Shown here one piece after another: positions 5,675 to 59,346 of a stretch of DNA of 64,000 nt; the stretch's first letter is position 1; each line of letters starts with the position of its first letter. The position numbers were made by a program, and so were the translations under genes. The stretch comes from Druceiella hillmani (lineage: Eukaryota; Arthropoda; Insecta; Lepidoptera; Hepialidae). The notes beneath the pieces were generated by a model. The model ran no database searches, was not told where the DNA came from, and saw nothing but the letters and a program-made list of their open reading frames with translations. The DNA is taken from the NCBI GenBank assembly GCA_039881145.1, contig JAYKKI010000039.1, positions 19,586,001 through 19,650,000 on the forward strand, written 5' to 3'.

Positions 5675-5916
5675 GAAATGAACTTATACCCATTTCTCTT
5701 ATATATGTTACCTACCAAACTCGATTTCAGGACAAACTAGTTTTGCCCAGGCTAAACTAATTCTTCCTATACCCGATAGGATTAACCGGTATAGCCTAGA
5801 CTAGACTAGTTCGTACTAAGTCTGATAGGATAAACCAGTTTAGGCTAGGCCAAACTAGTTGATCCTAATATAAATACGCACACTCTCAGGATAAACTGGT
5901 ATGGCCTAGTCTAAAC
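5675..5916. repeat. left terminal inverted repeat of the Ginger-like element
   Basis: Complementary to 7989-8230. The outer 60 bp are nearly identical in inverted orientation; the inner part is about 80-85% similar by eye and rich in ACTAGT-containing motifs. Confidence 0.85.
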
Positions 5917-6096: not shown

Positions 6097-7716
6097 TTAT
6101 ACCTCAATTACTTTATTAAAATTGTTATTTATTATTGGTGTGCTTTGGTGGCACTTAAAATTGCAGAGTATCATTGCTTTCTTGTACTTGTATCTGTTTG
6201 TAGAACAGTTTTTGTTGCAGCTGCATCTCACAAAATCTTGGCCTGATCGAACTGAATATCTCGTAGCTGCAGTTTTTAATGCTATTTCAGAGCCTTGATT
6301 TACATCTGCTACCTCTAAAAAAGTTTGATTGCGAACGTCGAATTCTGATCTGAAAGAAATTAAAAAACTATTACTTTAGAATATCATTAATGCTTCAGAA
6401 AGATAGATAAATAATTAAGTAAGAAGAAACAAAACATACAATATAGTTTCTGAAGTACTTTATAAAAACCATCGTCAATTGTCTGAAGAATAACTCCAAT
6501 CATGTTTCTGAGATCACCTTTGCCTTTGTCAACATGTGGAATCGGTATAGCCACATTATCTCCAATGTTGGCAGGTGGATGAGACTTGTCAGAAGTAGCT
6601 TTCATTTTCTTAGCTTATTTAACAATTTTTTTCTGCTGCAGTTTTTCTAGCTTTTTGAATGTCATTTTTAGATGAAGAAACTTCGTCTTGGTTACTAACT
6701 TCTTCAACGTTACCATCAATCATGTCTTCTATCAGATTAACATTGCAATCATCTTCGATTACCTTCCTTAAGTCATCTTCATTCTGAACATCATTTATGA
6801 TCTCTTGTCTTTCAAATAATGCCTTGTATGGCGATTGTTTTATTCCCGAATGATAGGCATGGTTTTTCATGAATTGGACATATCTCAAGCCTTCTGACCG
6901 TTTCGTTAAAACGTTCCTTCATTCAAGAACCTATCACATTCTCAATATCTTGATTGGCACGTTCAACGGAGCCCTGACTTTGACTGTGCCTGGGTTTTCC
7001 GTGCACAATTTTGAGTTCTGGCTGAAGACTAACAAGCTCACTTATGACATGATTGACAAATTCCCTACCGTTGTCAGATTGAAGAATGCACGGCCCTCCT
7101 ATAGTTAGAAATGTATCATTCAAATGGCTACCTCTGTCGCTCTCTTAGATTGAAACGCGCGTAGCAGAACAAATTTTGTTAGATGGGCTTAGTAAACCAT
7201 AATAAATTTAAAATTTCCATCTCGTTATGTCTGGAAATCGATCAGATCCACTTGGCACCTAACATTCATTTCCGAATGAAGAATGGGCTTAGAAACTAAT
7301 CCCCTTTTCTTCTTTGTTTTCTTTTGATGACAGATACTACACATAGATAAATAAAGGCTTATCATTTGTTTTGTAATATTGGCATATTTTTTTGATATCT
7401 CGGCTAACATACTGTCCCGACCACCGTGGCCGACAGCCACATGAGCTGTGTCAATCACATCATAAAGTTCATCGGAAGGAAGATAGTATTTTATATTACC
7501 TTCACTACGTGCAATTAGTTTTTTCACATCCCTGATTTTTAGCACAGCAAATTATTTCAATCTTCTTTGTTGTAATGGTGTCTTTTTTCAGATTTTTCTG
7601 CATCTTCAACGTTTTCAACGAGTTCCAAATATTGGTTTGATGATAACACATTATAATCAGACGACTTTTTATTTTGTAAAACTTCCGTCAAAAACTTTTC
7701 CCTCCATTATTTTTGA
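6097..7716 (-). pseudogene. Ginger-like integrase/transposase, frameshifted
   Basis: Reading leftwards, an N-terminal piece (about 7716-7560, frameshifted) is followed by 7545-7225. That piece holds a zinc-binding H-x(n)-C-x2-C region (HVAVGH...CSICHQ) and ends in VDLIDFQ with the first catalytic Asp. The core continues through 7124-7224 with stops and then 7123-6923, where QSDNGREF gives the second Asp and SVERANQDI the Glu (36 residues between). Next come the SPYKALFERQ region (6888-6619) and GDNVAIPIPHVDKGKGDLRN (6605-6467). An intron-like gap has a TTTCTTTCAG acceptor at 6350. The last exon (6349-6097) encodes a Cys-rich tail of the form CSCNKNC...CNFKCHQ. At least three frame breaks make it non-functional. 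The family call rests on this domain order. Confidence 0.75.
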
Positions 7717-7988: not shown

Positions 7989-8230
7989 GTTTAGACTAAG
8001 CCGTACTAGTTTATTCTGGAGTGTGCGTATTTATATCAGGGTCAACTAGTTTGGCCTAGCCTAAACTAGTTTATCCTATAGGGCTTAGGACGAACTAATT
8101 TGGTCTGGGCTATACCAGTTAATCCTATCACGTATAGGCAGAACTAGTTTATCCTAGAAAAAACAAGATTGTCCTGAAATCGAGTTTGGTAGGTAACATA
8201 TATAAGAGAAATGGGTATAAGTTCATTTCT
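7989..8230. repeat. right terminal inverted repeat of the Ginger-like element
   Basis: Inverted partner of 5675-5916, including the inner landmark of ATATAAATACGCACACTC on the left and its complement here. Confidence 0.85.
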
Positions 8231-9914
8231 TTTGTTTGCGAGAGAATATGTTTTAACCTTTTTTCCATTTAGTTCACTTTATCTTTTATTGCTAAGCACT
8301 TATTACACAATTAAAAATATAATTTCTTACAAATTGGCAAGTATTTACAATATAAATATAGTAAATTTAATTATCCAACTCGCATATTTACTTAATCTGT
8401 CAATTTTAACAATAACATCTTGTTTATCCAACAACACTCAGGAAAAGTCTATTTGTCTATGAATTATGTTTGGAATAAAATTATATGTACATGAGCATAT
8501 GCATTGCATGGGAATTAAATAAATTTTTTTATACATTGGTTATGACCGGAAGTTATTTTAATTAAAGTATTAATGTAATGTATTTCTTTTTATATAATAT
8601 AATACGTAATGAATTTATATTGTAAAAAAATTTATACTAAATGCAATAGGTGAAAGTTATAAATTTAAAAAAAAAGAAAAAAGAACCATAATTTAAAGAT
8701 TTAAAAATTTGTCTGCGACGTCATCTGACTTTTAATCAACAATAGGGCGTCTACAACGCTGATAAAATTTCAAAAAAATATTGTGATTTCTTTACGTTTT
8801 TTTTATATAATATAAACTTATTCTTCCGAAAATTAAAAGCAATTTGCTTATTTACGTTATAATCTAATAGGATGACCCCGAATCGTCGTATATTTTCGAT
8901 GTTGTCAAATAGCCTAACGAGTTTTTTGGTCAGAAAGGGTGAGGGGAGGAGAGAGGGGATTCATTTTGACAGCGTTTGGGAAGATGGATTTTTGGATGGA
9001 TATAATTCAATACGGTATCGGTGTGTAGAAGGTTAGTTGGCGCATTTTGTGTTGTATGCCAAAACTACAGCGACGAATAGGGAGACGTCATGGCAAACTT
9101 CATAAATAACATTCAAAAGTAGGCCACATTACATCTTATCACGCAAGTACTGGTTTAAAAATATTTTGATTCAATCAGAAGCAAAACTTAGGAACGTCAA
9201 AAATATTTTAAAGAAATTAACAATAAAACCGATCTAATCTAGTTTCTAGTTTGCAACTTCATTTATTTACGTTTTGATAATTGTAGTTTTATCAGAACAG
9301 ATTATTTTATATATCCATATATTTTATATCGTTACTCATACAAGTCTTATCTTTGGTTGCGATAAATTCGTAAAACAAATAGGTAACTTCCCACTTAACG
9401 TCATGAGTGTTGCCATTGCAATAAATATTAAGTCAATGAAGATGATTATTTTTTTTTAGCCTTCGATAACAAAAAATGTTTTATTGTCTATGTGACTTTT
9501 TTCTTCATCTGCAATTAATAGGCTAATAATCAAATTATTTTCGTAGCAACAATTCAATAAAAGTAAATTTTAAATATGACATAAGTAAATTTATCAATAT
9601 TGTTTTGTGGATTGAATGAACAGTAAATACCAAACTTTACAAAGAAATTTTCGCATATTAATGCGAATATACAAAATTTGTTTTATACTCTTTGTTTTTT
9701 TTATATTGCCCGTTTCAATAGACATCGTTTTAAGAAATCCTTAACCATTTTAACTTATCTCACTAAATGATCTATTAAATTCAGGAGAATAAAAAATAAG
9801 TACTCTAAACTGTTTCCTAAGAGATTTTTCATAACGTAGTTGGATATTTTTATCACATATGGAAGATTATTCAAATGTATTGTGTATATAAAGAACTTTA
9901 AAAATGCATAAATA
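8231..9914. other. intergenic, nothing recognised
   Basis: AT-rich. Open frames at 8211-8462 and 9274-9459 are hydrophobic low-complexity translations of AT-rich DNA and resemble no family. A small purine-rich patch lies near 8935-8960. Confidence 0.4.
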
Positions 9915-10182
9915 ATTCACAATTAAATGAAACTACGTGAAATAGTATTATTTCTATTTTCTTTAATTTCTTTACCACGACCTAGGTTTCGTTGTATTAC
10001 AATATCTTCAGGTGGACTATTAGTAAAGATATCTTTGCTAATATCCCACCTGAAGATGTTGTAATAAAACGAAACCTAGGTCGTGGTAAAGAACTTATAG
10101 AAAGTAGAAATAATACTACATCACGTAGTTTCATTTAATTGTGAATAATGAATTTCTACAAAATTAACGTCAAATATATTCA
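9915..10182. mobile_element. palindromic element copy 1 with two hammerhead-like motifs
   Basis: A near-perfect palindrome (9915-10146). Its arms start ATTCACAATTAAATGAAACT and meet at a centre near 10030. It is followed by a 36-bp extension (10147-10182) also found beside copies 2 (left side, inverted) and 4 (right side). Each arm has a hammerhead-ribozyme-like motif pointing inward-to-outward on opposite strands (9975-10015 minus, 10046-10086 plus). Stem II has one mismatch in each arm of this copy. The inverted arrangement plus a hammerhead motif recalls inverted pLTRs of Penelope-like elements, but no reverse transcriptase is present, so the family is open. Confidence 0.75.
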
Positions 10183-12177
10183 ACAGCAGAAATAATTTTT
10201 AAATGCTTATCAAATGAACTTTTTTACTAAATTGTAATTGATGGCGTTGCTAAGGTTATTGATAACATTCATAAGACAATAATAAAAGTATTGAATAAAA
10301 TGTTTAAACATTAAAGTAGTCGGAATAAATAAAATTCTAGAAACTTTTGCCTCCTGCTGAAACAGACAGCCGAAAGTAATTTTCTTTTAATTGCACATCC
10401 GTGAAATACTTATTACATAATTAAAATCTGTTTTAATATCTGATAAAAATCTTACTACTTATACTATTTCCCATATAGTCCAAGAGCTGACTGTAAAATA
10501 TAAAGCTACAGGATAAAATGTTAATATGGAATGGTAGCCCATTACGAGTAAATTATGGTTGAAGGTTCAAAAAAAACCTTACTTAAATATATTGAAAGCA
10601 TTTACGTTTTTGGATAGGATATTTATTGAATTTTGATATAACATACGGTTTGAAAAGATTTTAAATAGTTTTTTAAATTTCCAAAAAAAAACAAAATCTA
10701 GGGGAAAACAGGCTTTGCTTGAAGCAGGTAAGCTATTGGGGTAAAGTTAATAAAGGACATAATAATTGACAGAATAAACATTATAAACTTTACATTACAC
10801 GAAAATAACAATAATGTGTCATTATAATGTTTTATAGTAATAAAAATATCTACTTCACCCGTATTTAATAGGACTCAGTATTGTGAAACGTTACATTTGA
10901 AGTGGATAATATATAAGTGTAAACCTAACTATTTGGCATAATTGTTATGAATATGTACCTAATAACAGGCGTTAAATCAGTATTTGTTAGATGTACACTT
11001 TAACGACTTCGTCAGGAAATTGTTAAATAATTTCTTAACAATGTTCTAATGGCTTTCCAAAATAGGAAGTACAAGCTTCGTGAGTCCATTGTTTGCAAAT
11101 TCTGGTGGTTCAAGCCGGTCAGTTATTTTAGGTGGCAAAAGGTCTGCTAGCTGGATCATCAAATATGTTAAGATTAGTAGGCAACGTTTCACTAGATGAG
11201 GAATCGTATGATTACATTCTGCACACTAGTTGTTTTTGACATATGCATAGATTCTTGCGATCTCATAATGAGAAATAGTACGTCTAAACGACGTTAAAAG
11301 ATCGAAACTATTAATTCGAAATAAGTCTTATTAGACTTTGATTCCACTAAGATTCGAAATAAGTATTTTAAGACACATATGTCATTCTCTGAAAAGTCAT
11401 GTCTCAGTCAGTTCAAGGGCTACATGCGATGTGCTACATAAGAGTGAAACAAAACTCACCTCCAAGGAATTTATGGACATGATTTTTCATTACCAGGATG
11501 ACAATATTCTTCGTAGAAAAACATTATCAAAATGACGAAATAGTACAATTAGATATAACAAATGTTATACTCTTTATTGCATAAATGGAAAAAGTGGATG
11601 CAAAGCGATTAATCAGTAGTGAATTTTAATTAGTTCAACTTTGTTTAAAAAACACATATTTTTAATTTTTCTTTCTATATATTTTTTAAATTCCTATGTA
11701 TTCTAATCTTTTAAATTATTCTAGCACTTGCTTTTTCGTAACAGTATTCAAATGTTATTCGGTTGTTCTAAATACAGTATTATTTACAGTTTTATGCAAG
11801 AAGTTATTATATTCAGTGGTTAGATAAATTGTTTTGTCTTGTAGAAATTATGTCATTTTATAAACAAAATAATTGGGCCTTATTTGTGATGGTCATTTAT
11901 TGGTATTCTCCTGTGCTTATGTTGGTGGGTATCAAGGTGGCCAAAATCTGGAAATAATTGTATCTTAAACGTGTTACATGATTATATATTTTTGAATACA
12001 AAATGTATAATTTTGTGTTAATTCTAATTTCGATAATTGAAAATTACGTTGATATTTTTTTTTAATATTGAATGAAATTATAATTTTGGATCTTCAACAA
12101 TTCACCTTAATATAAAATCTTTTAAAATTTTGCCTATGTTTATCTTATGTTTTAAATTTGAAACATAATATAAATTT
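10183..12177. other. intergenic, nothing recognised
   Basis: AT-rich. The open frame at 11338-11535 shows no known motif. No structured repeats were recognised. Confidence 0.4.
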
Positions 12178-13036
12178 GTTAGTTAAATGTATTAACAGAA
12201 TAACTCACTTTTTTATAAGCAATCAATGAAATAATTTAAGCTTACATCTTGTTAGTTAAATGTATTAACAGAATAACTTACTTTTTTATAAGCAATCAAT
12301 GAAATAATTTAAGCTTACATCGTATTAGTTAAATGTTTTAACATAATAATTTACTTTTTTATGAGCAATCAATGAAATAATTTAAGCTTATATATTGTTA
12401 GTTAAATGTATTAACAGAATAACTCACTTTTTTTTAAACAATCAATGAATTAATTTAAGCTTACATCTTGTTAGTTAAATGTATTAACAGAATAACTCAC
12501 TTTTTATAAGCAATCAATGAAATAATTTAAGCTTACATCTGGTTAGTTAAATGTATTAACAGAATAACTCACTTTTTTATAAGCAATCAATGAAATAATT
12601 TAAGCTTACATCTTGTTAGTTAAATGTATTAACAGAATAACTCACTTTTTTTATAAGCAAGCAATGAAATAATTTAAGCTTACATCTTGTTAGTTAAATG
12701 TATTAACAGAATAACTCACTTTTTTATAAGCAATCAATGAAATAATTTAAGCTTACATCTTGTTAGTTAAATGTATTAACAGAATAACTCACTTCTTTAT
12801 AAACAATCAATGAAATAATTTAAGCTTACATCGTATTAATTAAATGTTTTAACATAATAATTTACTTTTTTATGAGCAATCAATGAAATAATTTAAGCTT
12901 ACATCGTATTAATTAAATGTTTTAACATAATAATTTACTTTTTTATGAGCAATCAATGAAATAATTTAAGCTTACATCGTATTAATTAAATGTTTTAACA
13001 TAATAATTTACTTTTTTATGAGCAATCAATGAAATA
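12178..13036. repeat. 73-bp tandem array, about 12 copies, two subfamilies
   Basis: Units of 73 bp share CAATCAATGAAATAATTTAA and GCTTACATC. Most units read GTTAGTTAAATGTATTAACA followed by GAATAACTCAC. The third unit and the last three or four read ATTAATTAAATGTTTTAACA followed by TAATAATTTAC. The array ends about 400 bp upstream of the first exon of the zinc-finger gene. Confidence 0.95.
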
Positions 13037-13433
13037 ATGAAACTGAATATAAGAAAGATTTGGTGTAGGCAACGACTTAATCAAAGTGATACTAAACAGA
13101 AGACAATTTAACTTTCAATGATGAAAAATGTAATTTCCTTTTGAATTATATTATTACCTCTGGCAACAATAGCGAGTAGTTTTGTCTCTGTTCTGTGCAA
13201 GTAATATAGATTATATATTAAAAGCGATATTGTCTAGTTGCGGTGGTTCTAGTTTGTTCTATTGACAAGAAAAATAACGTTTAAAGTTTTTAATAAATTA
13301 TATATTTCAGTTGTATCGTGTCGAATTAATATTAAATACAGAATAACTAGCGTTAAAGTTGGTTAATACCTCTTTAAAGTTGATTGTAAATAAACTGTGG
13401 ACAACAATTTTTAAAGGCGATTACCACTGAATC

Positions 13434-13505: not shown

Positions 13506-13557
13506 GTGAGTAAAATTTAATTATTGTTATTATTGTTTGTATAAAAATATATACATC

Positions 13558-13823
13558 TTGAATATATTTGGTGTTAATTTTGTAGAAATTCCTTATTCAC
13601 AATTAAATGAAACCCCGTGATGTAGTGTTATTTCTACTTTCTTTAATTTCTTTACCACGACCTAGGTTTCGTTGTATTACAACATCTTCAGGTGGGATAT
13701 TAGCGAAGATCTTTGCTAGTAGCCCATCTGAAGATGTTGTAATACAATGAAGCCTAGGTCGTGGTAAAGAACTTAAAAAAAGTAGAAATAATACTACATC
13801 ACGTAGTTTCATTTAATTTGAAT
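13558..13823. mobile_element. palindromic element copy 2, in intron 1
   Basis: Palindrome at 13595-13823, preceded by the family extension (13558-13594) that follows copies 1 and 4 in inverted orientation. The left arm keeps the best hammerhead-like motif of the window on the minus strand. The right-arm motif (13724-13764, plus) has GAAG in place of GAAA and a weakened stem I. It sits only 52 bp downstream of exon 1. Confidence 0.8.
13655..13695 (-). ncRNA. hammerhead-ribozyme-like motif (copy 2, left arm)
   Basis: Read on the minus strand: CCAC (stem I), CTGAAGA (matches core CUGANGA), one extra U, GTTGT-AAT-ACAAC (5-bp stem II), GAAA, CC-TA-GG (minimal stem III), TC (cleavage after GUC), GTGG (stem I partner). 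All conserved core nucleotides fit a type I hammerhead except for the extra base between the core and stem II. The two-base-pair stem III is typical of motifs that work as dimers. Activity is untested. Confidence 0.6.
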
Positions 13824-14434
13824 ATATACATAATTTTTATTTAATTTTATGAAGTGAACATTTCATGAAAAAATATCTTGTTGTGAATTGCGTTTTGTCT
13901 AAGAGATAATCTTCTGGTTTTCGATTACATCATTATCAGATATTTTGGCTAGCAAATCGTAATACCTACATCTAGATTGACAAAGAAAGTCTTTATGCTT
14001 CACATTATACCTAATTTCAACTTATGTATAGAGCAAGAAGTTATAATTAAATCCTTACACATTTATTCTTAAATAGCCGTCAATATTTTTTGATTTCATT
14101 ACAGCATTAAACTTTTCAAAATTTTACCATATTTAAAAGACTTTGACTGCTTTCTACGGTTTGCAAAAACTTCATGTATTTATATTTTAATAAATGTAAA
14201 TTTGTGCTTTCTGTCACACACGCTGGCTACACAGACAGCAAAAATTTAGCCTGTTATCTATCGCTAATCGTTCTCAAGACGATATGCTTCAATATAAGTT
14301 GTTTTCTGGCGAGATTTTCCAATAAATTTATATCCAACTCAATATTTTCGTGTATAGGCAGATTTATATACAATAGATTTTTGTTTTTAAATGGTTTCAG
14401 ATCGGTATATTCAATTAATTTTCCACTAGCATAT
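13824..14434. other. intronic, nothing recognised
   Basis: AT-rich intron sequence. The open frame at 14174-14647 runs into the tandem array beyond and shows no known domain. Confidence 0.4.
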
Positions 14435-18800: not shown

Positions 18801-19076
18801 GTCACAAGCTAGGCGCCGAACTCGAGGCGTGTGATTTTTCAACAACCAATCACAGCCCAGCAAGCGAGGGTTTGAGCCACTGCCGGCAGACGCCGATAAA
18901 CTTTATCTCGAGAGAGCCTGGTTGTACTTTAAAATCGTGCAAGTAGTCTGATATTTTTCTTTCCGAATTCTCTAAATGCCAAAATAAAAATTTTAAGTAA
19001 TTCCAAGGTGCTTAAAGGATATTTTTTGGGATTAAGATTTTGCAACTATCATATGCTGCGCAGTAGCGAAAGGCCT

Positions 19077-19412
19077 TTCCAGATTCTTGATTCCACATTC
19101 ACTATTACTGATATCGCTTTCCAGATTCTTGATTCCACATTCACTATTACTGATATCGCTTTCCAGATTCTTGATTCCACATTCACTATTACTGATATCG
19201 CTTTCCAGATTCTTGATTCCACATTCACTATTACTGATATCGCTTTCCAGATTCTTGATTCCACATTCACTATTACTGATATCGCTTTCCAGATTCTTGA
19301 TTCCACATTCACTATTACTGATATCGCTTTCCAGATTCTTGATTCCACATTCACTATTACTGATATCGCTTTCCAGATTCTTGATTCCACATTCGCTATT
19401 ACTGATATTGCC
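19077..19412. repeat. 42-bp minisatellite, 8 copies
   Basis: Eight nearly identical copies of a 42-bp unit (TTCCAGATTCTTGATTCCAC plus ATTCACTATTACTGATATCGCT). Because 42 is divisible by 3 and the unit lacks stops, several frames on both strands stay open (for example a 14-residue FQILDSTFTITDIA repeat). That is an arithmetic consequence, and no gene is called. Near-identity points to recent expansion. Confidence 0.97.
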
Positions 19413-19559
19413 TAAAATACCTTCCCCAAATTTGTCGCCGCTCTCGTTCGGCCTATTCGTACTGGTTATCTGGTTGACGAGTGCCCAGCAAATTCATTAT
19501 CCGTCCCATGTCTAGACAAAACCCTTTTTTCTCAACACAATCGATACTTATTGTAACGG

Positions 19560-20806: not shown

Positions 20807-22618
20807 ATTTCGTTGTTATTTCATTAAAGTAGTAAATATGTTTAGAACAATGGTTACTTGCTGCGTTTTTTATTGTGGTACTAAATATCGATATGATCCA
20901 GGCAAATACACATTCCATTGGTAAATTGTAAAGAATTGACACCGTATTTTTTATAGATATTTTTGCTAACCCCGCCGAAATTACCATTTTATATGTGACA
21001 ATTCATAGAATAATATTCCTAATGACACGGGTAGGTACCTACAGGGTGAAATAAAATTAATTGTCCCCACTTTTTGTGTTTTAATATTAATTTAATGTTT
21101 AGGCTAATGTTCATCATCTTCTCGATAATTTTGTCGACTAAAATTAATTAGGTTTAGTATTTTTTAAAGGAACTGGATATCGATAGAAATTTAGACATTT
21201 TTTTTAGAATATCATGGCAAATTAGGAACCTCATAATTTCATCATGTCTATCCTCTCTCGTCTGTATTCTGTACATATATCACAGCCCTGTAACTACGTC
21301 ATGTTTAAATATTTTATGAATAAATTTTGCAAGATAACTCGTTTAGTCAACGTACGGACAGGATGATTTTATGGTTCCCATGTATAGGAGGGTACCACCC
21401 CCCTCCTACACATGGGAACTTAAGACAGATTTTCTCACCTACCCCATTAAGTGGAGTATCAGAGAATAAGTCTTTCAAAATGCAATTTAAAAGAAATATC
21501 GTTAGTTAAATGCATTATTTTCGCACATTCTCGCCTCACTATTTTTTCAGTAGCGCGTTTTAAAAACCTGATTAATATCATAATAACATTTAAATTTTTC
21601 GCTTTAGTTATATTGACAAGTCTATAAGGTTAAAAATAGAATCTGTTAAAAATATACAACGGTTATCGACGTCCTTATCGATATTATTGGACACAACTAA
21701 ATTTATACTGTAATTATTTTAGCACGTACAAACAACATTTATTACCAAACTAAAAACCGAAGTCGTATAAACAATAAGTCTATGATATTATTTTTACTGC
21801 GTAACCTTTTTTCTGATTTTGCAATTCAGGATTCGAAAAGCGAGTAGAACTGTTGCCCATATTTTCTGAATATTTTCGAGTTAATTCTCTGAAATATTAA
21901 TATGTAAATATTGCAAGGGTTAAATTTTCAAAATATTATTTTAATTTCATGTGTCGTTGGAGATTTAGAGAAACTGAAGTTTACTATTTGCTACCGTTGG
22001 TTTACTTTGAGAGGAGGGGAAATCAATGGATGGCAGAAATATTAATCGTCTGTTTCGCTCTAGATTTTTCCTGTACTATTCGCTTTAATTGTTGTTGTAC
22101 ATGCCTGAAAGAGACTAAAATTTGCACACAGTGAAAGTCCAAATTATTTATACTTGAGATTAGTGCTAAATAATGGAAGTATTTTAATGTAATTTAGCTA
22201 CGATAATGCTGAGTAGTTTATTTAGATGACATAATATAATATTAATATAAATATTAATTTTTTGAGAATAATCTATTTATTACTTCGTGAAGTAGTTACA
22301 TATTAAGTTTGTATGACATATTCACATTATTATTGAATTATTGATTAAATGATTCCATTAAATTTAAAATGAAAATTAATTTTTCTCACATTAATCCCAC
22401 TTGGCCAATTTTCTTCTTACGCCCACTATTACACTTATAATTAAGCTTTTTAATTTTTTGTAAGCTTTTTATCATTATTTGAAAGTTTCGGGTGATATTA
22501 ACGTAAATTATGAGGTACATGATTCAGCTCATTGTACGTAGATACCTTTGAGATCAATGTCACTCGCTTCCAACGTTCTAGAATAATAATATGAAAATAT
22601 TTTAAAATTGGTATACTT
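20807..22618. other. intronic, one hairpin only
   Basis: AT-rich intron with no coding exon recognised. A 46-bp inverted repeat at 21374-21419 (arms GTTCCCATGTATAGGAGGG and its near complement) is the only structured feature. Open frames at 20805-20987, 21327-21509 and 21949-22134 resemble no family. Confidence 0.4.
21374..21419. repeat. inverted repeat / hairpin
   Basis: About 20-nt arms with one or two mismatches around a GTACCA centre (GTTCCCATGTATAGGAGGG against its complement). Confidence 0.85.
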
Positions 22619-25600
22619 GTTAGCACAAAAGGTAATAAACAAAAAAACAAATTGAAATATTTTCTTATAAAGAAACTAATAAATCCGCATACAAATGTAT
22701 ATTTTTTCTTAAAGGTATAAATATATACATGTTAGCACAAAAGGTAATAAACAAAAACACATTGAAATATTTTCTTATAAGTAAACTGATAAATCCGCAT
22801 ACAAATGTATATTTTTTCTTAAAGGTATAAATATATACATGTTAGCACAAAAGGTAATAAACAAAAACACATTGAAATATTTTCTTATAAGTAAACTGAT
22901 AAATCCGCATACAAATGTATATTTTTTCTTAAAGGTATAAATATAAACATGTTAGCACAAAAGGTAATAAACACATTGAAATATTTTCTTATAAGTAAAC
23001 TAATAAATCCGCATACAAATGTATATTTTTTCTTAAAGGTATAAATATATACATGTTAGCACAAAAGGTAATAAACACATTGAAATATTTTCTTATAAGT
23101 AAACTAATAAATCCGCATACAAATGTATATTTTTTCTTAAAGGTATAAATATAAACATGTCAGCACAGAAGGTAATAAACAAAAACACATTGAAATATTT
23201 TCTTATAAGTAAACTAATAAATCCGCATACAAATGTATATTTTTTCTTAAAGGTATAAATATAAACATGTTAGCACAGAAGGTAATAAACAAAAACACTT
23301 TGAAATATTTTCTTATAAGTAAAGTAATAAATCCGCATACAAATGTATATTTTTTCTTAAAGGTATACATATATACATGTTCGCGCAAAAGGTAATAAAC
23401 AAAAACACATTGAAATATTTTCTTATAGGTAAACTGATAAATCCGCATACAAATGTATATTTTTTCTTAAAGGTATACATATATACATGTTAGCACAGAA
23501 GGTAATAAACAAAAACACTTTGAAATATTTTCTTATAAGTAAACTGATAAATCCGCATACAAATGTATATTTTTTCTTAAAGGTATAAATATAAACATGT
23601 TAGCACAGAAGGTAATAAACAAAAACACTTTGAAATATTTTCTTATAAGTAAAGTAATAAATCCGCATACAAATGTAAATTTTTTTTTAAAGGTATACAT
23701 ATATACATGTTCGCGCAAAAGGTAATAAACAAAAACACATTGAAATATTTTCTTATAAGTAAACTGATAAATCCGCATACAAATGTATATTTTTTCTTAA
23801 AGGTATACATATATACATGTTAGCACAGAAGGTAATAAACAAAAACACTTTGAAATATATTCTTATAAGTAAACTGATAAATCCGCACACAAATGTATAT
23901 TTTTTCTTAAAGGTATAAATATAAACATGTTAGCACAGAAGGTAATAAACAAAAACACTTTGAAATATTTTCTTATAAGTAAAGTAATAAATCCGCATAC
24001 AAATGTATATTTTTTCTTAAAGGTATAAATATATACATGTTCGCGCAAAAGGTAATAAACAAAAACACATTGAAATATTTTCTTATAAGTAAAGTAATAA
24101 ATCCGCATACAAATGTATATTTTTTCTTAAAGGTATACATATATACATGTTCGCGCAAAAGGTAATAAACAAAAACACATTGAAATATTTTCTTATAAGT
24201 AAAGTAATAAATCCGCATACAAATGTATATTTTTTCTTAAAGGTATAAATATATACATGTTCGCGCAAAAGGTAATAAACAAAAACACATTGAAATATTT
24301 TCTTATAAGTAAAGTAATAAATCCGCATACAAATGTATATTTTTTCTTAAAGGTATACATATATACATGTTCGCGCAAAAGGTAATAAACAAAAACACAT
24401 TGAAATATTTTCTTATAAGTAAACTGATAAATCCGCATACAAATGTATATTTTTTCTTAAAGGTATAAATATATACATGTTAGCACAAAAGGTAATAAAC
24501 ACATTGAAATATTTTCTTATAAGTAAACTAATAAATCCGCATACAAATGTATATTTTTTCTTAAAGGTATAAATATAAACATGTTAGCACAAAAGGTAAT
24601 AAACACATTGAAATATTTTCTTATAAGTAAACTAATAAATCCGCATACAAATGTATATTTTTTCTTAAAGGTATAAATATAAACATGTTAGCACAAAAGG
24701 TAATAAACACATTGAAATATTTTCTTATAAGTAAACTAATAAATCCGCATACAAATGTATATTTTTTTTAAAGGTATAAATATAAACATGTTAGCACAAA
24801 AGGTAATAAACACATTGAAATATTTTCTTATAAGTAAACTAATAAATCCACATACAAATGTATATTTTTTCTTAAAGGTATAAATATAAACATGTTAGCA
24901 CAAAAGGTAATAAACACATTAAAATATTTTCTTATAAGTAAACTAATAAATCCGCATACAAATGTATATTTTTTCTTAAAGGTATAAATATAAACTTGTT
25001 AGCACAAAAGGTAATAAACACATTGAAATATTTTCTTATAAGTAAACTAATAAATCCGCATACAAATGTATATTTTTTCTTAAAGGTATAAATATATACA
25101 TGTTAGCACAAAAGGTAATAAACACATTGAAATATTTTCTTATAAGTAAACTAATAAATCCGCATACAAATGTATATTTTTTCTTAAAGGTATAAATATA
25201 AACATGTTAGCACAAAAGGTAATAAACACATTGAAATATTTTCTTATAAGTAAACTAATAAATCCGCATACAAATGTATATTTTTTCTTAAAGGTATAAA
25301 TATATACATGTTAGCACAAAAGGTAATAAACACATTGAAATATTTTCTTATAAGTAAACTAATAAATCCGCATACAAATGTATATTTTTTCTTAAAGGTA
25401 TAAATATATACATGTTAGCACAAAAGGTAATAAACACATTGAAATATTTTCTTATAAGTAAACTAATAAATCCGCATACAAATGTATATTTTTTCTTAAA
25501 GGTATAAATATAAACATGTTAGCACAAAAGGTAATAAACACATTGAAATATTTTCTTATAAGTAAACTAATAAATCCGCATACAAATGTATATTTTTTCT

Positions 25601-26495
25601 TAAAGGTATAAATATATACATGTTAGCACAAAAGGTAATAAACACATTGAAATATTTTCTTATAAGTAAACTAATAAATCCGCATACAAATGTATATTTT
25701 TTCTTAAAGGTATAAATATATACATGTTAGCACAAAAGGTAATAAACACATTGAAATATTTTCTTATAAGTAAACTAATAAATCCGCATACAAATGTATA
25801 TTTTTTCTTAAAGGTATAAATATATACATGTTAGCACAAAAGGTAATAAACACATTGAAATATTTTCTTATAAGTAAACTAATAAATCCGCATACAAATG
25901 TATATTTTTTTTTAAAGGTATAAATATAAACATGTTAGCACAAAAGGTAATAAACACATTGAAATATTTTCTTATAAGTAAACTAATAAATCCACATACA
26001 AATGTATATTTTTTCTTAAAGGTATAAATATAAACATGTTAGCACAAAAGGTAATAAACACATTGAAATATTTTCTTATAAGTAAACTAATAAATCCGCA
26101 TACAAATGTATATTTTTTCTTAAAGGTATAAATATAAACATGTTAGCACAAAAGGTAATAAACACATTGAAATATTTTCTTATAAGTAAACTAATAAATC
26201 CGCATACAAATGTATATTTTTTCTTAAAGGTATAAATATAAACATGTTAGCACAAAAGGTAATAAACACATTGAAATATTTTCTTATAAGTAAACTAATA
26301 AATCCACATACAAATGTATATTTTTTCTTAAAGGTATAAATATAAACATGTTAGCACAAAAGGTAATAAACACATTGAAATATTTTCTTATAAGTAAACT
26401 AATAAATCCGCATACAAATGTATATTTTTTCTTAAAGGTATAAATATATACATGTTAGCACAAAAGGTAATGAACAAAAAACACATTGAAATATT
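22619..26495. repeat. satellite array, about 37 copies of a 104/110-bp unit
   Basis: About 3.9 kb of direct repeats inside intron 1. The unit begins TAGCACAAAAGGTAATAAAC and contains CCGCATACAAATGTATATTT. Two length classes differ by a 6-bp block (AACAAAAACACA versus AACACA). Units are mainly 110 bp from 22619 to about 24478 (two 104-bp units near 22951 and 23055) and 104 bp from 24479 to the end. Diagnostic variants define higher-order units between about 23269 and 24478. A sixfold recurring minus-strand 81-residue open frame is a by-product of the repeat and is not a gene. Confidence 0.97.
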
Positions 26496-27175
26496 TTCTT
26501 TAAAACGTTCCAAAAACAATATTTTACTGTTTTATTACTATTGTACTATTACTCTATGTTCTGTGATCTATTACTTAGTCAGTCCCCCGCGCGGTTCCGA
26601 AGTAAGAGTATGGCTCCTTTGAGTTAGGCGATGATTAATTTTTTACTACAGATTAAGGTATTACACGCCTGAAGAATTTAAATTTCTGTTATAGTTTCGT
26701 GCGTGTAAGACCCGCGAGATATTACATATATGTATTACAATTTATTAGTCTGTAACGTTTTCCTTCATTACGTAAATCAATATGTGTACTGTATTTTGCC
26801 ATAGAGTCATTTAAATGAGCATTCATATTGAAAAATAATCAATAAATGAGTCATTTAAATGAACATTCATATTCCTTAACTGCAGTTTTAAAATTTCTAT
26901 CGGACGCACGCGATACAGTCCACACAAACAATTTTTACTCGGTTATAAATTTAGTCTATTCATTTCAGCATCGTTTTGTGGATACTCGAGAAAGATGGAC
27001 AATATGCCTCATGCCTAATATGTCTACCTCGTGCCTATATATCTGCAGAATAATATTAAAACTTGCTATTTTTATTTGATAAATAATTCATTATACTAAA
27101 CTAATTAGGAATAAAGTTTAGTGTGTTCATAAAATTTCTGCTCGCATGATCTATGGCAAGATTCAATAATTTTAA
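26496..27175. other. intronic spacer with a short direct duplication
   Basis: No gene seen. A word close to GAGTCATTTAAATGARCATT followed by CATATT occurs twice, at about 26806 and 26848. Confidence 0.45.
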
Positions 27176-30798: not shown

Positions 30799-31596
30799 TA
30801 GATATATGAAGTTAGGAATAACATTTTTAGTAGAAATATAATTAAGTGAATTACTTTAAACAATCTCAACACGAGGAAATGCTGGTTATGCAAGTATAAC
30901 GCGCTCTATGAGGCTTCCGTAAATACTTATGGTATAAAAACATTTAAACTTTTTCCTAATATTATTTCTCACCACGTAAATATATAAATATATTATTTAA
31001 TATACTTTTTTCATAGACAAGATAAATATACATTTTAAAATACAAAGTTATTTTTGCAGTTGATTTATTGCAGTCATAGTTTGCTAATATCCTACCTGAA
31101 CAACTAAATATAATATCATCAACCATACTTAATATCTTCTAAACATAATACAATTAGACAACATTGATACTACAGTACTCTTCAAATTATTTCAGCCCAA
31201 ATACACATATAAATATAAGTATATAAAATTAAAATAGATAAATATGTAAATAAACAAATATATGAATAAATAAAAAGTGAGATATGTAGAATTAGTGGTA
31301 TAACCTTGTTCTAACTTTCATATATCCTTGCTTTTGTTTAAATATATTACTGAGAATAACTTCCAGTTAATTTTATTACATACACCGGAACATTTACATT
31401 ATACAACCTCATAGAATAACAACAATTGAACATATTACCCTCACTAAAATACTGGTAGATCGTATAACTCTCGGAAATATAATAAAACCTACACCGCTCC
31501 CCTACAATAAACTCACTAAACAATGGAAAAACCCACACAGGCTTCCGCTATTGTGTTTAAAACATATAAATGCTGTGGGATGTTCCTAAGAGTTAT

Positions 31597-31710
31597 TCTT
31601 TGCTAATATCCCACCTGACGATGTTGTCATATAACGAAACCTAGGTCGTGGTAAAGAACTTAAAGAAAGCAGAAATAATACTACATCACGTAGTTTCATT
31701 TAATTGTGAA
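31597..31710 (+). mobile_element. palindromic element copy 3 (single arm), intron 2
   Basis: One arm only, from the palindrome centre (TTCTTTGCTAATATCCCACC) to the terminus (TTTCATTTAATTGTGAA). It is either a half-deleted copy or a monomer form. The hammerhead-like motif is preserved on the + strand, which is the sense strand of the host gene. Confidence 0.75.
31611..31651 (+). ncRNA. hammerhead-ribozyme-like motif (copy 3, sense strand)
   Basis: CCAC, CTGACGA, T, GTTGT-CAT-ATAAC, GAAA, CC-TA-GG, TC, GTGG. Relative to copy 2 the variable core base is C (allowed by CUGANGA). Stem II still pairs through a G-U wobble, so the differences respect the hammerhead model. The predicted cut is after C31647. 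An extra U lies between the core and stem II, as in the other copies. Activity is untested. Confidence 0.55.
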
Positions 31711-32059
31711 ACAATAAAAGGGGAAATTCTTTCTCTTTCACACACTTCGCCACTCCAAATTGACAGACAAATATTGTTTACCGAATTCAATTCATAGGAT
31801 TGTACTATCTTGCACACACAATCGCTTGAAATTAGACATATATTAGGACACATTAGGATGTGTATGGACGCAATCACAATTTGACGTAAAGCTCTCTTAT
31901 TGCGGACAATTTGTCTTTCGGCGTTTAGCCACTATTTTAAAACACAATCTCTTAATTTCAATCATTAAATAATAAATTTAATGATTGAAATAAAGTTAAG
32001 CTAAGCTAAAGCTAAGCTTAGCAATTGCTAACTTTTTTTTGGAAATTGTTGCCTATTTT
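31711..32059. other. intronic, nothing recognised
   Basis: No gene. A short run of AAGCTAAGCTAAAGCTAAGC near 31993 is simple repeat-like. Confidence 0.4.
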
Positions 32060-43760: not shown

Positions 43761-45030
43761 TTACAATACGTAATTTTCAAGCAGTATTCGATTTGCATTT
43801 AAAAATATATTGCAACCAAGGTGCTTTGGGAGTAGACGGTTCCTTTCCCAATTAGTCACCTCTCCAGCTTTTGAAAATATTCTCTCTGATGGAACTGAGA
43901 TGGCCGGAATGCAAAAATATTTTACATGTAATTTGTATAAATCTAGGTTATTATTCTTCATGCTCTTCAAATAAACGAAGGATTGCTTTTTCTGTAAAGC
44001 AGACAAAGCTATAAATACTGTTGTAAAGATATTATATTCTTTATTGATATTATATTCTACGTGTAGACACGTAGATGTTGCAATATATAAAGGTTTTTTT
44101 TCTTCAAGTGATGCCAAATTGATAATGGTTTTGTAGTTTCTTGCTCTTCAGGTACCTCTGTTTCTTTAGGATGACTCGTCACTAAAGTGCTGCGCCTAAT
44201 ACATATCAGTTCTATACAGCATTGCTGGACGCCAGTGACGTTGGAATATACACCAAACCTTGTTTTTTTTTTGTTTATTGCTTTCCATTGCATGAAGGTA
44301 GTTTAAGTTTCTTTAAGTTGAACTCCAGCTTAGATTTTCGGCGTTGGTTAAATTTAAATTATATTGCAGACCTCGTAATAATGGAATGGCCAAACCTATA
44401 TTTTTCTCCAGGTAGTTGTTGTGTAATTTCTTCAATATTTTACAGAACAACCGTTAATATTTTATACATAATCATTAATCTTTAATTATACATAATCTGT
44501 TAATATTTTATACATAATCTTTAATATCTTTAATTATACATAATCTGTTAATATTTTTCGCTCATTATTGTCAGGGAATATTTGTGTGTTATCAATTACA
44601 CTAGCCATAAGTAGTACTTTAACTTCACACAGCCTTGAAAACATTATACCAACACAGTTCCACCTAGTTTCTAGACACTGCCTTAATTTGAAAATCAGCA
44701 TGTTCATTTGTTCCTGTTTACGAATATGAATAGTTGGCCACTATAGCAAAAGTGGGCAACCATCTGTATGCCTTTTTGAATAATATATTGATAACCTTGA
44801 TTACCATCAAATGTTTCCTCTATGATACAAAGATGATGTTCTCGAAGAAACTGATCTGCAGCTATTTTCACGTTTTGTGCATTATCTGATCCTGTTGTAA
44901 CTATTTTCAGAAGGGTATCAAATTCTTGGAATATTTGATGTACATTTTCTCCTACGATTTCTTCGGTATAAGGATTTGGAAGTTCTCTTGTTGTTAAAAC
45001 TAAGGGATGTAGTTCGTCCTTTATAATCAA
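43761..45030 (-). pseudogene. hAT transposase relic (zf-BED1-like type)
   Basis: Two open blocks on the minus strand. 45030-44704 has LHPLVLTTRELPNPYTEEIV and VTTGSDNAQNVKIAADQFLR, matching the TTExxxxxHTAxxI...VTDNAxNMxxA region around the second catalytic Asp. 44117-43761 holds the C-terminal dimerisation domain, HVKYFCIPAISVPSERIFSK with AGEVTNWERNRLLPK (classic CIPATSVPSERxFSxAGxxxxxxRNxLxP). The intervening catalytic segment is missing or scrambled. Confidence 0.8.
44445..44560. repeat. short tandem repeat of TTAATTATACATAATCT-type words
   Basis: Two to four diverged copies of TAATTATACATAATCTGTTAATATTTTATACATAATC-like sequence, here given only as its key words TATACATAATC and TGTTAATATTTT. 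It lies inside the hAT relic between its two blocks. Confidence 0.7.
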
Positions 45031-47225
45031 TGGTAAATGACATTGATATGTGATTTATTAGAATGAGATTTCCGTATATCTGTTTTAACGGCTAAGTAAT
45101 GAAGATTATTCAAGATTTATTTTAAACGTGCACTTACTTTTTCGTACTTATTAAATAACATAGAGTGTGTTAAAACTTGTCCTGCTATATGTATAAACTG
45201 TTTCACTACCCGAGATTTCTCGTTACAAGATTCTAACAAAATTGAGAAACCCCTGTTTCCAACTAGTTAGAGTGGCTGATAATCTCGTTAAGTCGCTCGT
45301 TAATCTCGTTAGGCTCGATAATCGCAAATCATTTGCAACAGTGCAATGTTAACATAACTTCTTCGTTTTTTATTAAATTCTTTTATAACTAGTGTGGATG
45401 ACAAGATTGTCTGATTTAACCTTTTCCTGCAACGCTCACTTACCTTTAGTATTTCTGGTTCTACTGCATTTTTGACTGCATGTCATTCTAAATGACCGAA
45501 TGTCTTCTATGCAAAGTATTGTACTTAAATATTTGCGGAAATTTGTAGATTTTATTGCCCACACTATTACATACGTACTCTCCTATCCGTATCCGTTTGT
45601 GTGTTTACGGAAATTAATGTAGGGCCGTCAGCAGCGTGCAGATAAAGAATATTTACTATTACTATATATCGGTGTCGATCGTTGCGGGCAACGCGCCGAT
45701 CGAGCGAGTTGACGCTAGACATGACCAAAATAGCTGTTTCTCTTTCTGGCTAATAGCGTCCACCGATTGACTATCTCGTTGGCACGTAGACGCAGTAACT
45801 CTGTACTGGCGGGTACGTCTTTGTTATTACCTAATAGTAAAAATGTTATTGTATAAATAAATATTTCATACCATGTGAAGTTAAATTGGCGGGATGAGGT
45901 GAGTGTCGCTTCTTTACGCAGTAGTAGTTAATATTCTTTGACGCTATGGAAGAAAGTTGTGTGGAATGGCGTCAGTTATTATTGAAAGCAAAGTTCTAAC
46001 CGAAGTTTGGGTAATGTACAAAACTTTCCCATGTCCATAAAGGCCCCCCACTTAAGTGATATAAATGCTTCAAAAGAGTTACTCAAAATTTTAAATAGCT
46101 GCATGCCCTTGTCAAATCTGACTGTCTATTGCGCCAAATTTTATTTACGATTTTTGCCATAATTTTGGTAATTGTGGAAGCCCATTTTTGTAAAAATCCT
46201 GCAGTTTGACTGAAAAGAATTTTTCAGTACATTTTTCTACGTTTTCAGTACCATTTTTTCCCTATAGATGATGTTGAAGAGATCGATATAACCGAAAACC
46301 CAAAGGTGTGACGTCAAATATCTAAATATGAAGAACGTATACAAATTTCCTCTCCAAACTAATTCAGCTTTAAAACGCGTTAAAACCTGAAAACCTCTAA
46401 AAGGTCATCCTGACTCCTTTTTTTTCAACCTGAATGATGCAAAATACCACATCACTTCCATAAATCCGGGCAGAAAGCAAGAGATATATAATTTTATTCT
46501 AGCTGTGACAACCATTGAAATTGGACGTGGGATCAAACGAACGGTAATGTGTGCTGCCAAGAATTCTTTTAAAGAAAAAAATGTAAATATTTTTTTAATT
46601 TTAAAATTAAAAAACAAGTGCATGAAAGAATTTTAGTTTGTATTTTATTACGGAGAAATGTTTTATGCAAAAAAGCTTACAAATTGAGAGTGTTGGATTC
46701 AGGAAATTTAGCTTGCTGTATACTTTCCAGACAATGAATTTGAGTATAATTTTTCTCAAAAAAATGGATAAGCATACAAGAAATAGTTTTTTCTGCAAAG
46801 TAAAGTTATTTCTGCATCTTAATGTATCTTTTAAAAGGTATTTTATTTAATGTATCTTTTTAAAGGATTCGTATTACTATAACCATTTTTTTTTTTAAAT
46901 CTGTACAATGCCATAAATACTCTATTGTTTAGTTAGTAAAAATTATTTGCAAAATTATTTAAAAAAAGGAAAGTTTTTGAGACACGGTAAACTGCTTAAC
47001 AGTTTTTAAAAAATACTTCATTGCCCGAAATGAATAAACTTATTTAAAATATCTGCTGGTAGTTTTGTATTTCTGTGAATTTATGTGCTTCTCTATTTAA
47101 AAAAAAGAACTTGAAGGAATCTTTTCAAATTTTACTTACTCAAAGCCCTTTTGACTCTTATTCCAAATTCGAAATGATTTTTTACTGTGAAAACTTTCTC
47201 ATTTCAAAAAATTGTATATACTACC
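45031..47225. other. intergenic, no supported gene
   Basis: CpG-richer around 45640-45830. A + strand stretch near 46495-46560 reads AVTTIEIGRGIKRTVMCAAK, which looks protein-like but was not identified. No array recognised. Confidence 0.35.
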
Positions 47226-57560: not shown

Positions 57561-59050
57561 AGACATTCATAACGAGTATAGAGTGAATCTGATAGAACTG
57601 TAACCCTTTAGTTTATTCCCTTCCATTTTACCTTCATTTACAAAAATTTTTTGGGGTTTCCCATGGAGAAACGTGGTATGTAGGGATCATTTTTAATTCT
57701 CAAGATATAATCATTGTTCTAAAGAGCCGTTCATAAATTTTGATACATCGGAGTCTATTTATCATTCAACTACAAATAATAATCCCCACTACATCACAGC
57801 TATTCAATTAATCATAAGTAACTTTCTATCTTCCACATTTTATCATAAATACTAAAAAGGTGATGACAATGTAGCTTGATTGTTATTTTAAAATTAAAGT
57901 TTCAAATTAAAGTCAACATTTTTAAAATTTACTTTTAAATATTCAAGTAAAAACAATAGTTATTCATAGTAAATGGCTTTAAAAATCTTAACACCTTAAC
58001 TGTGATTCGGTCAATAAAGAAATTACCAAAAAAATAAATATTGATACATAAATTATTACTACTATGAATGAGGTAAAAGAAGTAGTATGACTTTATTATT
58101 GCACGCTTATAATTAATATATCGACTGAATTTTGACTGACATTTGAGATATCCACGTTGCTGAACATACTTCAAAAAACCTCGCAACCATTCCCTTATTA
58201 ATTTTATCTAAATGCAAACACAAAGACTCAAACAAATTTCATCCATTGATAAGCTATGAATACATTTGGTAAAATAAATTAATTGACATATAGCCAAATA
58301 TATAATATGAACAATATTACGTCCGTCAGATAATAGATCAATAATGTCTTATCTTATCCAATGTATACGTTCAATAAATACATTATTCGCATTCTTATCT
58401 TAATGATACAATACTATCCACAAATATTGAACGTTTGAATACCAAAATAATGAAATGCACAATACAGACTATAAGGTGATAATGCTATAATGAATATAAT
58501 GTCTCTCTGCTGTTCTCCAATTGGATAGCCATTTCCGAGACCATTTGTTACGGTCATAAAAAAATTATACAAATAATGAATTTTATCTTTAAATTTAAGT
58601 CATTCCTAAATTCATGAGGACTTCAGATTGATTTTGCCCTGTTTTGATTAGCAGCTTCCCTATTTATCAATACTTGGACAATCTATCGTTAATTAACTTT
58701 TTCAAGAATAAATACTGATGTTTTTCTGGATAAACTAGTAGTTAAACAACTAACTATAGTAAACAAATTGGAAAATTTTGTCATAAATTGATAAAGATCG
58801 TCAGTAGCTATTATTAAAATATTAAAATAAAAATTTCTGAGCTTGTATACCATCAGGAACAACCTTTCCTCTAAAGCTGCAGGTTTGTTATTCTTGTATT
58901 CATTGATAATATGGTTCATCAAGAATTCATCGACGGTAATTTGTCTGCATTGCCACCATTGTCAATGTTTTGTTTTTACTGGAAGAGTCCAAAAAATAAT
59001 GGAGAGAAATGAATAAATAAATTTGAATTTATTTTGGAAAAGTATATAGG
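57561..59050. other. intergenic with one unexplained minus-strand frame
   Basis: AT-rich. The minus-strand frame at 58955-58689 continues upstream of its first Met to a GCAG acceptor-like site and reads QITVDEFLMNHIINEYKNNK and onward to a stop. It looks less random than its neighbours, but no family was recognised. Confidence 0.3.
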
Positions 59051-59346
59051 CACAATTAAATGAAACTATGTGATGTAGTATTATTTCTACTTTCTTTAAG
59101 TTCTTTACCACAACCTAGGTTTCGTTGTATTACAACATCTTCAAGTGGGATATTAGCAAAGATTCTTTGATGATTTTTAGAATCTGTTTGTATTAATCTT
59201 TGCTAATAGTCCACCTGAAGATGTAATACAACGAAGCCTAGGTTGTGGTAAAAAGCTTAAAGAAAGTACAAATAATACTACATCACATAGTTTCATTTAA
59301 TTGTGAATAATGAATTTCTACAAAATTAACACCAAAATATATTCAA
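59051..59346. mobile_element. palindromic element copy 4
   Basis: Palindrome 59051-59307 with a longer central spacer (about 59165-59200), followed by the family extension 59308-59346. Its hammerhead-like motifs are damaged. The left arm (59108-59148, minus) reads TTGAAGA in place of CTGAAGA and has a GUU site. The right arm (59211-59248, plus) lacks three bases of stem II and has GAAG. Confidence 0.8.

Follow-up and report, generated by a model that had tools for sequence, protein, structure and literature searches.

Three palindromic repeats in the window, by which we mean the whole 64-kb stretch of DNA that was analysed, are almost certainly insertions of a non-autonomous Penelope-like element (PLE) that has no ORF and consists of two pseudo-LTR (pLTR) cores placed head to head, followed by a tail. 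The arms of these repeats, numbered copies 1, 2 and 4, consist of the pLTR core of a PLE that is common in the same genome and encodes reverse transcriptase (RT) and a GIY-YIG endonuclease. Many such palindromic units are present in the genome, with variable target-site duplications (TSDs) of 9-15 bp and fixed ends. The pLTR carries a PLE-type motif with the layout of a minimal type I hammerhead ribozyme and, as a result, each palindrome has one motif facing each way.

Results

Structure of the repeats in the window

The initial annotation had located arms of about 110 bp, common to four copies, in the window. All four were found where it had put them, copy 3 being represented by one arm only (31597-31710). 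The two arms are 91% complementary in copy 1 (9912-10030 and 10031-10149), 90% in copy 2 (13601-13709 and 13710-13818) and 93% in copy 4 (59051-59139 and 59217-59305). Copies 1, 2 and 4 are units of 265-295 bp in which two pLTR cores lie head to head and one of them bears a tail of about 42 nt; the palindromes run beyond the shared arms by this tail of about 40 nt on one side only. The features are listed in Table 1.

Copy 3 had been regarded as half a palindrome, which was a misdescription, as it corresponds to the 3′ end of a PLE. Positions 31099-31717 are 78% identical over 630 bp to positions 4699-4112 of the PLE copy L186, a stretch that opens where the GIY-YIG ORF ends and continues through the pLTR, and 31080-31099 match the head of another direct pLTR core at 19 of 20 bases, as judged by eye. 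Copy 3 is a PLE devoid of its ORF, and displays the parent setting of the arm inside the window.

Table 1. Coordinates of the palindromic copies, of copy 3 and of their parts in the window.
Feature	Position	Strand	Basis or remark
Copy 1, left TSD (GCATAAATAATT)	9906..9917	.	Pairs with 10186-10197, 11/12 identical
Copy 1, complete miniature palindromic PLE: both arms and tail	9918..10185	+	Inverted-repeat search; ends and TSD
Copy 1, tail-less left arm: pLTR core in reverse orientation	9918..10030	-	91% complementary to right arm; PLE pLTR sequence
Copy 1, left-arm hammerhead-like motif, predicted cut 9979/9978	9975..10015	-	Pattern match 9987-10011 minus
Copy 1, right arm: pLTR core	10031..10143	+	Sequence; inverted-repeat search; arm alignment
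Copy 1, right-arm hammerhead-like motif, predicted cut 10082/10083	10046..10086	+	RF00163 19.6 bits (cut-off 34), E 0.011, 10044-10088
Copy 1, PLE tail	10144..10185	+	In L223 the same stretch is the first PLE ORF codons (MNFYKI...)
Copy 1, right TSD (GCAGAAATAATT)	10186..10197	.	Partner of 9906-9917
Copy 2, miniature palindromic PLE, tail at left	13557..13821	-	10-bp TSDs 13547-13556 and 13822-13831
Copy 2, tail-bearing arm, intact hammerhead-like motif	13655..13695	-	RF00163 16.6 bits (cut-off 34), 13653-13697 minus
Copy 2, short arm, hammerhead-like motif altered (C-to-U in stem I, stem II base, A15.1)	13724..13764	+	Sequence
Copy 3, PLE with ORF deleted	31080..31717	+	Direct pLTR core head joined to post-ORF sequence and tail-less pLTR
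Copy 3, hammerhead-like motif	31611..31651	+	RF00163 17.3 bits (cut-off 34), 31609-31653
Copy 4, palindromic PLE, about 32 additional nt at centre, both motifs damaged	59050..59344	+	
Copy 4, TSDs	59039-59049 and 59345-59355		10/11 identical; score 8, under the count threshold

The arms are pLTRs of an RT/GIY-YIG element

The pointer of the initial annotation to PLEs proved correct. The arm is present in 35 of the 36 PLE loci that were fetched (several of which overlap one place), with identity of up to 98.7%, and in most of the listed arm matches the pLTR extends upstream of the arm in a like manner; L196 was the sole locus of the 36 without an arm match. When the genome was searched for GIY-YIG, two matches exceeded the cut-off: L185, which lies beside an arm, and L187, which has none. 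The order in L185 is an inverted pLTR without the full tail at the 5′ side, a GIY-YIG fragment of the Penelope type with 34.5 bits (cut-off 22.6) and a direct pLTR with the tail at the 3′ side. When this fragment was used as a query, 150 of 150 scored places matched, out of 6151 first-look candidates. Open frames of up to 864 aa are found among these 150 places, as are 25 minus-then-plus pairs within 6 kb, counted by hand. The only long frame that was scanned, 780 aa in L219, contains RVT_1 (E 7.5e-12), with a GIY-YIG match under the cut-off (19.3 bits, E 0.0014). In L223 the PLE ORF opens with MNFYKINAKYIQ, which is encoded by the tail.

The features of a PLE are thus found together: an RT and GIY-YIG source, inverted head-to-head pLTRs, a 42-nt tail and short variable TSDs. 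A convincing TSD was sought for the L186 copy and for L170, and none was found. Some PLEs form minus/plus head-to-head pairs with long open frames, e.g. C1:49482088-49487199 and C137:533978-537908, and the pLTR arms of these pairs are mostly 93-99% alike; this sequence similarity suggests fairly recent activity.

The palindromic family in the genome

The genome searched comprised 2.59 Gb in 181 contigs. The 268 bases of copy 1 as a query produced 1885 first-look candidates, the best 40 of which were scored. All 40 match on both strands at 90-100% identity and each is therefore a palindrome; being the best of 1885, they are complete by selection. These 40, which include copy 1, were aligned together with copies 2 and 4, and copy 3 was excluded because it has no tail (1 of 43). 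The resulting 42 copies align to a unit of about 265 bp made of a short arm, a long arm and the 42-nt tail. All of them are single palindromes and none forms tandem arrays; one has the tail at both ends.

A TSD with a score of at least 9 was considered clear. Such TSDs, 9-15 bp long, flank 26 of the 42 copies, compared with 1.8% of pairs whose two flanks came from different copies, and the other 16, including copy 4, score under this threshold. That the TSDs vary in length and that the tail is on one side only both point to retrotransposition. The palindromes hold only about 12 ORF codons, all within the tail, and have no RT or EN ORF of their own, so that they can be classed only as a non-autonomous PLE derivative. 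An AC-rich stem-loop was looked for in the tail: an AC-rich stretch is present, but the tail folds no better than shuffled sequences and the stem is unsupported.

Comparison of the arms revealed states shared by both arms of a copy. At three polymorphic columns the minor state occupies both arms in 13 copies (8.1 expected), 16 copies (10.0 expected) and 4 copies (0.48 expected), and at the first two columns the arms of a copy agree in the two main states in 29/42 and 33/42 copies. Other columns are arm-specific; at one of them A is found in 23/42 left arms versus 1/42 right arms. Arm identity is 0.9326 within a copy versus 0.9242 between copies, and 0.9526 versus 0.9510 when polymorphic columns are removed. 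The near-equal identities, together with the arm-specific columns and the shared states, indicate that the palindrome is mostly inherited as a unit, with some copying from arm to arm.

A hammerhead-like motif in the pLTR

Every arm had been described as containing, in order, CCAC, CTGANGA, an additional U, a 5-bp stem with a 3-nt loop, GAAA, CCTAGG, TC and GTGG. This order holds for the consensus and not for all arms, since the exact CTGANGA...GAAA is found in four of the seven arms in the window. Some arms are indeed damaged, as had been said. In copy 4 the left arm has TTGAAGA, with C3 changed, and the right arm lacks 3 nt of stem II and has GAAG; in copy 2 the short right arm has CCAT and GAAG. 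The additional U between the core and stem II occurs in six of the seven window arms, and in 74 of the 84 arms of the 42 copies (8 gaps, 2 C). The core is intact in 61 of the 84 arms, and the full core with all stem pairs is present in both arms of 12 copies, in one arm of 20 and in neither arm of 10. The consensus arm shows the conserved core of a type I hammerhead, CUGANGA...GAA-A...UH, together with three stems, and the minimal layout with the self-complementary ACCUAGGU as stem III is supported.

The bare CTGANGA-gap-GAAA pattern is not above chance: four were found versus 2.60 expected, and 26 of 100 shuffles reach four. When stems were required in a looser geometry, 14 matches were seen in 400 simulated windows. 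The strict geometry, fixed post hoc after the motif had been seen, gave one match in 3000 simulated windows, whereas the window itself has two matching arms, both from one family. Rfam detected no hammerhead in the entire window, either at the gathering score or at E<=10. Covariance models applied to isolated sequences placed RF00163 (Hammerhead_1) best by E-value with all scores under its cut-off of 34: three of the seven arms were tried and gave 16.6 bits (E 0.11), 17.3 bits (E 0.067) and 19.6 bits (E 0.011). It was also the best family for one isolated PLE pLTR, at 16.6 bits, the E-values of all four sequences lying between 0.011 and 0.11. The resemblance to a hammerhead is unlikely to be due to chance, yet the hammerhead is an atypical one.

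Several other interpretations of the arm were considered. The additional U was at first assigned to a PLE start codon (CUGAAG-AUG), given that the ORF of the Anolis Poseidon element PAc starts at stem II and that the distance from the ATG to the predicted cut is nearly equal, being 27 nt here and 26 bp from the ORF ATG in PAc, as described in PMC11167929. This was excluded for the palindrome family, because the PLE ORF of L223 begins in the tail and the frame from the motif ATG stops at its third codon; the motif and the ORF start, which is in the tail, are some 60 nt apart with the motif upstream, and the PAc spacing does not transfer. A 35-codon open frame in the arm has no Pfam match and no third-position bias (window arms, by eye) and is taken to be fortuitous. 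Matches to microRNAs over the palindromes are far under gathering scores and fit any long hairpin.

Viral contigs were scanned for the core pattern of the arm, with no match. Degenerate hammerhead scans, one of them capped at 120 stretches, yielded hammerheads in phage contigs; these served solely for comparison of the inserted U, and two of them as controls for folding. The inserted base is T in 22 of 24 well-paired motifs of viral contigs, a set whose retrieval pattern was biased towards motifs with such a base. Phage contigs such as L054, L048, L103 and L049 have type I hammerheads in which a single U is inserted between the core and stem II. Versions without the U sometimes occur in the same contig, and an open frame often starts within about 40 nt downstream.

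Folding, covariation and ends

A dimer-type stem III had been suggested, and in silico the predicted dimer fold comes close to the best dimer structure, with -25.0 kcal/mol versus -26.0 kcal/mol. The monomer ribozyme fold has -4.8 kcal/mol versus -14.6 kcal/mol for the best structure of the 66-nt arm (9.8 worse) and -4.8 versus -8.8 kcal/mol for that of the 44-nt core (4.0 worse). For both phage-contig controls the ribozyme is the best structure. A transcript of the whole palindrome is predicted to form a hairpin of about 110 bp at -157.8 kcal/mol (z -24.7), in which the motif is buried. The suggestion that both strands of the palindrome yield ribozymes is therefore unsupported, since the hairpin of a two-arm transcript hides the motif; the opposed orientation of the motifs is explained by the head-to-head arrangement of pLTRs, which is described for PLEs (PMC3846280).

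The initial annotation proposed covariation as a check and stated that several differences between copies respect the fold. No compensatory change was found in 905 pair cells, and the cited examples are single changes, none of them compensatory. Among the stem changes, 23 one-sided ones keep a pair and 34 break one; slid controls gave 0 to 2 compensatory cells. Of the outcomes that the initial annotation named as refuting, the lack of covariation was observed, and the match to the hammerhead model is only a sub-threshold one. These comparative tests are of low power because the copies are similar and decaying. Variation is 0.0255 at motif sites versus 0.0478 at other sites when all columns are taken (permutation p 0.09), and no extra conservation of the motif is seen without the polymorphic columns (0.0255 versus 0.0225).

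The 5′ ends of PLEs in the pLTR region were found at -179, -41, 57, 98 and 114, and arm fragments start at 35, 67, 67, 102 and 104. Among the few usable 5′ ends none lies at the predicted cut 52/53, the nearest being that of L223 at 57. Of 20 short stretches, three (L233, L235 and L236) aligned over the pLTR/ORF junction. The most likely situation would be that transcripts of tandem pLTRs have activity which is weak or confined to dimers, with masking in the palindrome.

Other features of the window

Two inverted repeats of 211 nt (5675-5885 and 8019-8229) are 90% complementary, and integrase-like open frames were recognized by eye between them on the minus strand (6923-7144 and 7225-7551); the arrangement resembles a transposon that encodes an enzyme of the integrase type. 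A hAT transposase remnant occupies 43761-45054 on the minus strand, with Dimer_Tnp_hAT at 43761-44147 (E 1.2e-08) and no Pfam match at 44704-45054. The stretch 22535-26621 holds two satellite-like arrays next to each other, one repeating every 104 bp or so and the other every 110 bp or so. Short tandem arrays at 1198-1517, 2128-2345, 12030-13132 and 18991-19494 have periods of 42, 24, 73 and 42 bp, and some of these four are open in several frames. A clear host gene for protein phosphatase inhibitor 2 is located at 50874-51458 (Pfam IPP-2), its best named relatives, from Lepidoptera, being about 58-66% identical and one further record, on a short contig, 88% identical; the host is accordingly placed within or close to Lepidoptera.

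Discussion

MITE and foldback elements are small and AT-rich and have long inverted repeats. The palindromes are likewise short, AT-rich and ORF-less with long terminal inverted repeats, the bare motif is at chance level and the looser geometry is matched 14 times in 400 random windows, all of which would suit a MITE or foldback DNA transposon with a fortuitous likeness to a hammerhead. Unlike such elements, however, the palindromes have TSDs varying from 9 to 15 bp, a tail on one side only and PLE-derived arms nearly identical to the pLTRs of the RT/GIY-YIG element. A DNA transposon is already contradicted by these data and is extremely unlikely. Somewhat different is the possibility that the palindrome does not propagate as an element, each insertion creating it anew from PLE RNA through self-priming or twin priming. 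It would agree with the frequent minus/plus pairs of PLEs in this genome, with the agreement between arms of one copy at two polymorphic sites and with the self-priming proposed for PLEs (PMC3846280). The 42-copy consensus nevertheless has a common centre (conservation falls there, and copy 4 differs), the left-arm-specific A is common to many copies, and arm identity within a copy barely exceeds that between copies. We consider formation anew to be unlikely.

The opposed motifs could also be read as a functional two-strand ribozyme device, the RNAs of both strands self-cleaving in a viroid- or retrozyme-like cycle. Of the 42 copies, 12 have complete core and stems in both arms and a further 20 in one arm only, stem III is self-complementary with a near-optimal dimer fold, and the inserted U occurs in phage-contig hammerheads too. 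Against this, the monomer fold is worse than the best structure in both the 66-nt arm and the 44-nt core, the palindrome forms a hairpin at -157.8 kcal/mol, there are no compensatory changes and no clear extra conservation, and in the few cases available PLE 5′ ends and arm fragment starts are absent from the cut 52/53; such a device is very improbable. A further reading is a two-strand, PLE-driven retrozyme, in which the palindromes would be hairpin-RNA parasites of PLEs, copied in trans by the enzymes of the PLE, with each arm partly rewritten from the other in every cycle through self-primed copying, and the opposed hammerheads would process read-through transcripts from both strands before the hairpin closes; we regard this as quite improbable.

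If, as we prefer, the palindromes are an ORF-less PLE derivative, the RT/endonuclease of the full-length PLE would mobilise them in trans and their two outer ends would represent two reverse-transcription start sites. The palindrome may have originated by self-priming or by the joining of two cDNAs, and would now be inherited as a unit, with occasional copying, presumably from one arm to the other. The hammerhead, if active at all, would function chiefly when two pLTRs of the same sense dimerise, and would be largely masked in the palindrome.

Much of this anatomy has precedents. PLEs are described as having inverted head-to-head pLTRs, an optional tail, TSDs of 8-10 bp and a pLTR that runs into the ORF, and their palindromic junctions have been attributed to self-priming (PMC3846280). 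In PAc the tail of 30-40 bp is reported to be the stretch between two RT start sites, and the hammerhead to be inactive without protein (PMC11167929). A. vaga Penelope (PMC3846280) and Anolis PAc (PMC11167929) share with the palindromes the head-to-head pLTRs, the optional tail (30-40 bp), short variable TSDs, a pLTR/tail running into the ORF, an RT and GIY-YIG source and, in PAc, a hammerhead. Unlike them, the palindromes have neither the ORF nor the upstream portion of the pLTR, and they constitute a separate repeat family whose members have a centre in common.

Minimal hammerheads of PLEs without a proper stem III may work as dimers (PMC7761336); such dimer-type motifs of PLEs and Terminons are credited there to Cervera and de la Pena (2014) and Lunse et al. 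(2017). Like the PLE/Terminon hammerheads presented in PMC7761336, the motif described here has its core in pseudo-LTRs, a minimal or missing stem III and no evident loop-loop contact, and dimer action has been proposed; the inserted U and the scores under the Rfam cut-off would set it apart. The palindromes also resemble the metazoan non-LTR retrozymes as described in PMC7229834, which are small (170-400 nt), non-coding, hammerhead-bearing and highly self-paired, and which have been proposed to be mobilised by PLEs (PMC7761336). They differ from the retrozymes of PMC7229834 in being, in the 42 copies aligned, single palindromes and not tandem arrays, in having hammerheads on opposite strands and in that none of these is canonical.

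It is already known that PLEs have tails and head-to-head pLTRs and that their pLTRs carry hammerheads; the palindromic miniature is the unusual part. No ORF-less palindromic pLTR family with partly homogenised arms was found in the literature searched by title and abstract opening. In the monarch butterfly a Penelope-like element is reported to rank among the most populous TE families (PMC8848866). In the genome analysed here the PLE family is large and its copies are very similar (of 6151 first-look candidates, 150 were scored), and a miniature palindromic derivative accompanies it. Two questions thereby become testable: whether insertion ends are shaped by the ribozyme, and by what means PLEs generate and maintain inverted ends in a head-to-head arrangement. 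The agreement of arms at some sites and the left-arm-specific states elsewhere bear on the mechanism of copying. Transcripts of the palindromes would be ready-made double-stranded RNA and may contribute to silencing of the parent PLE.
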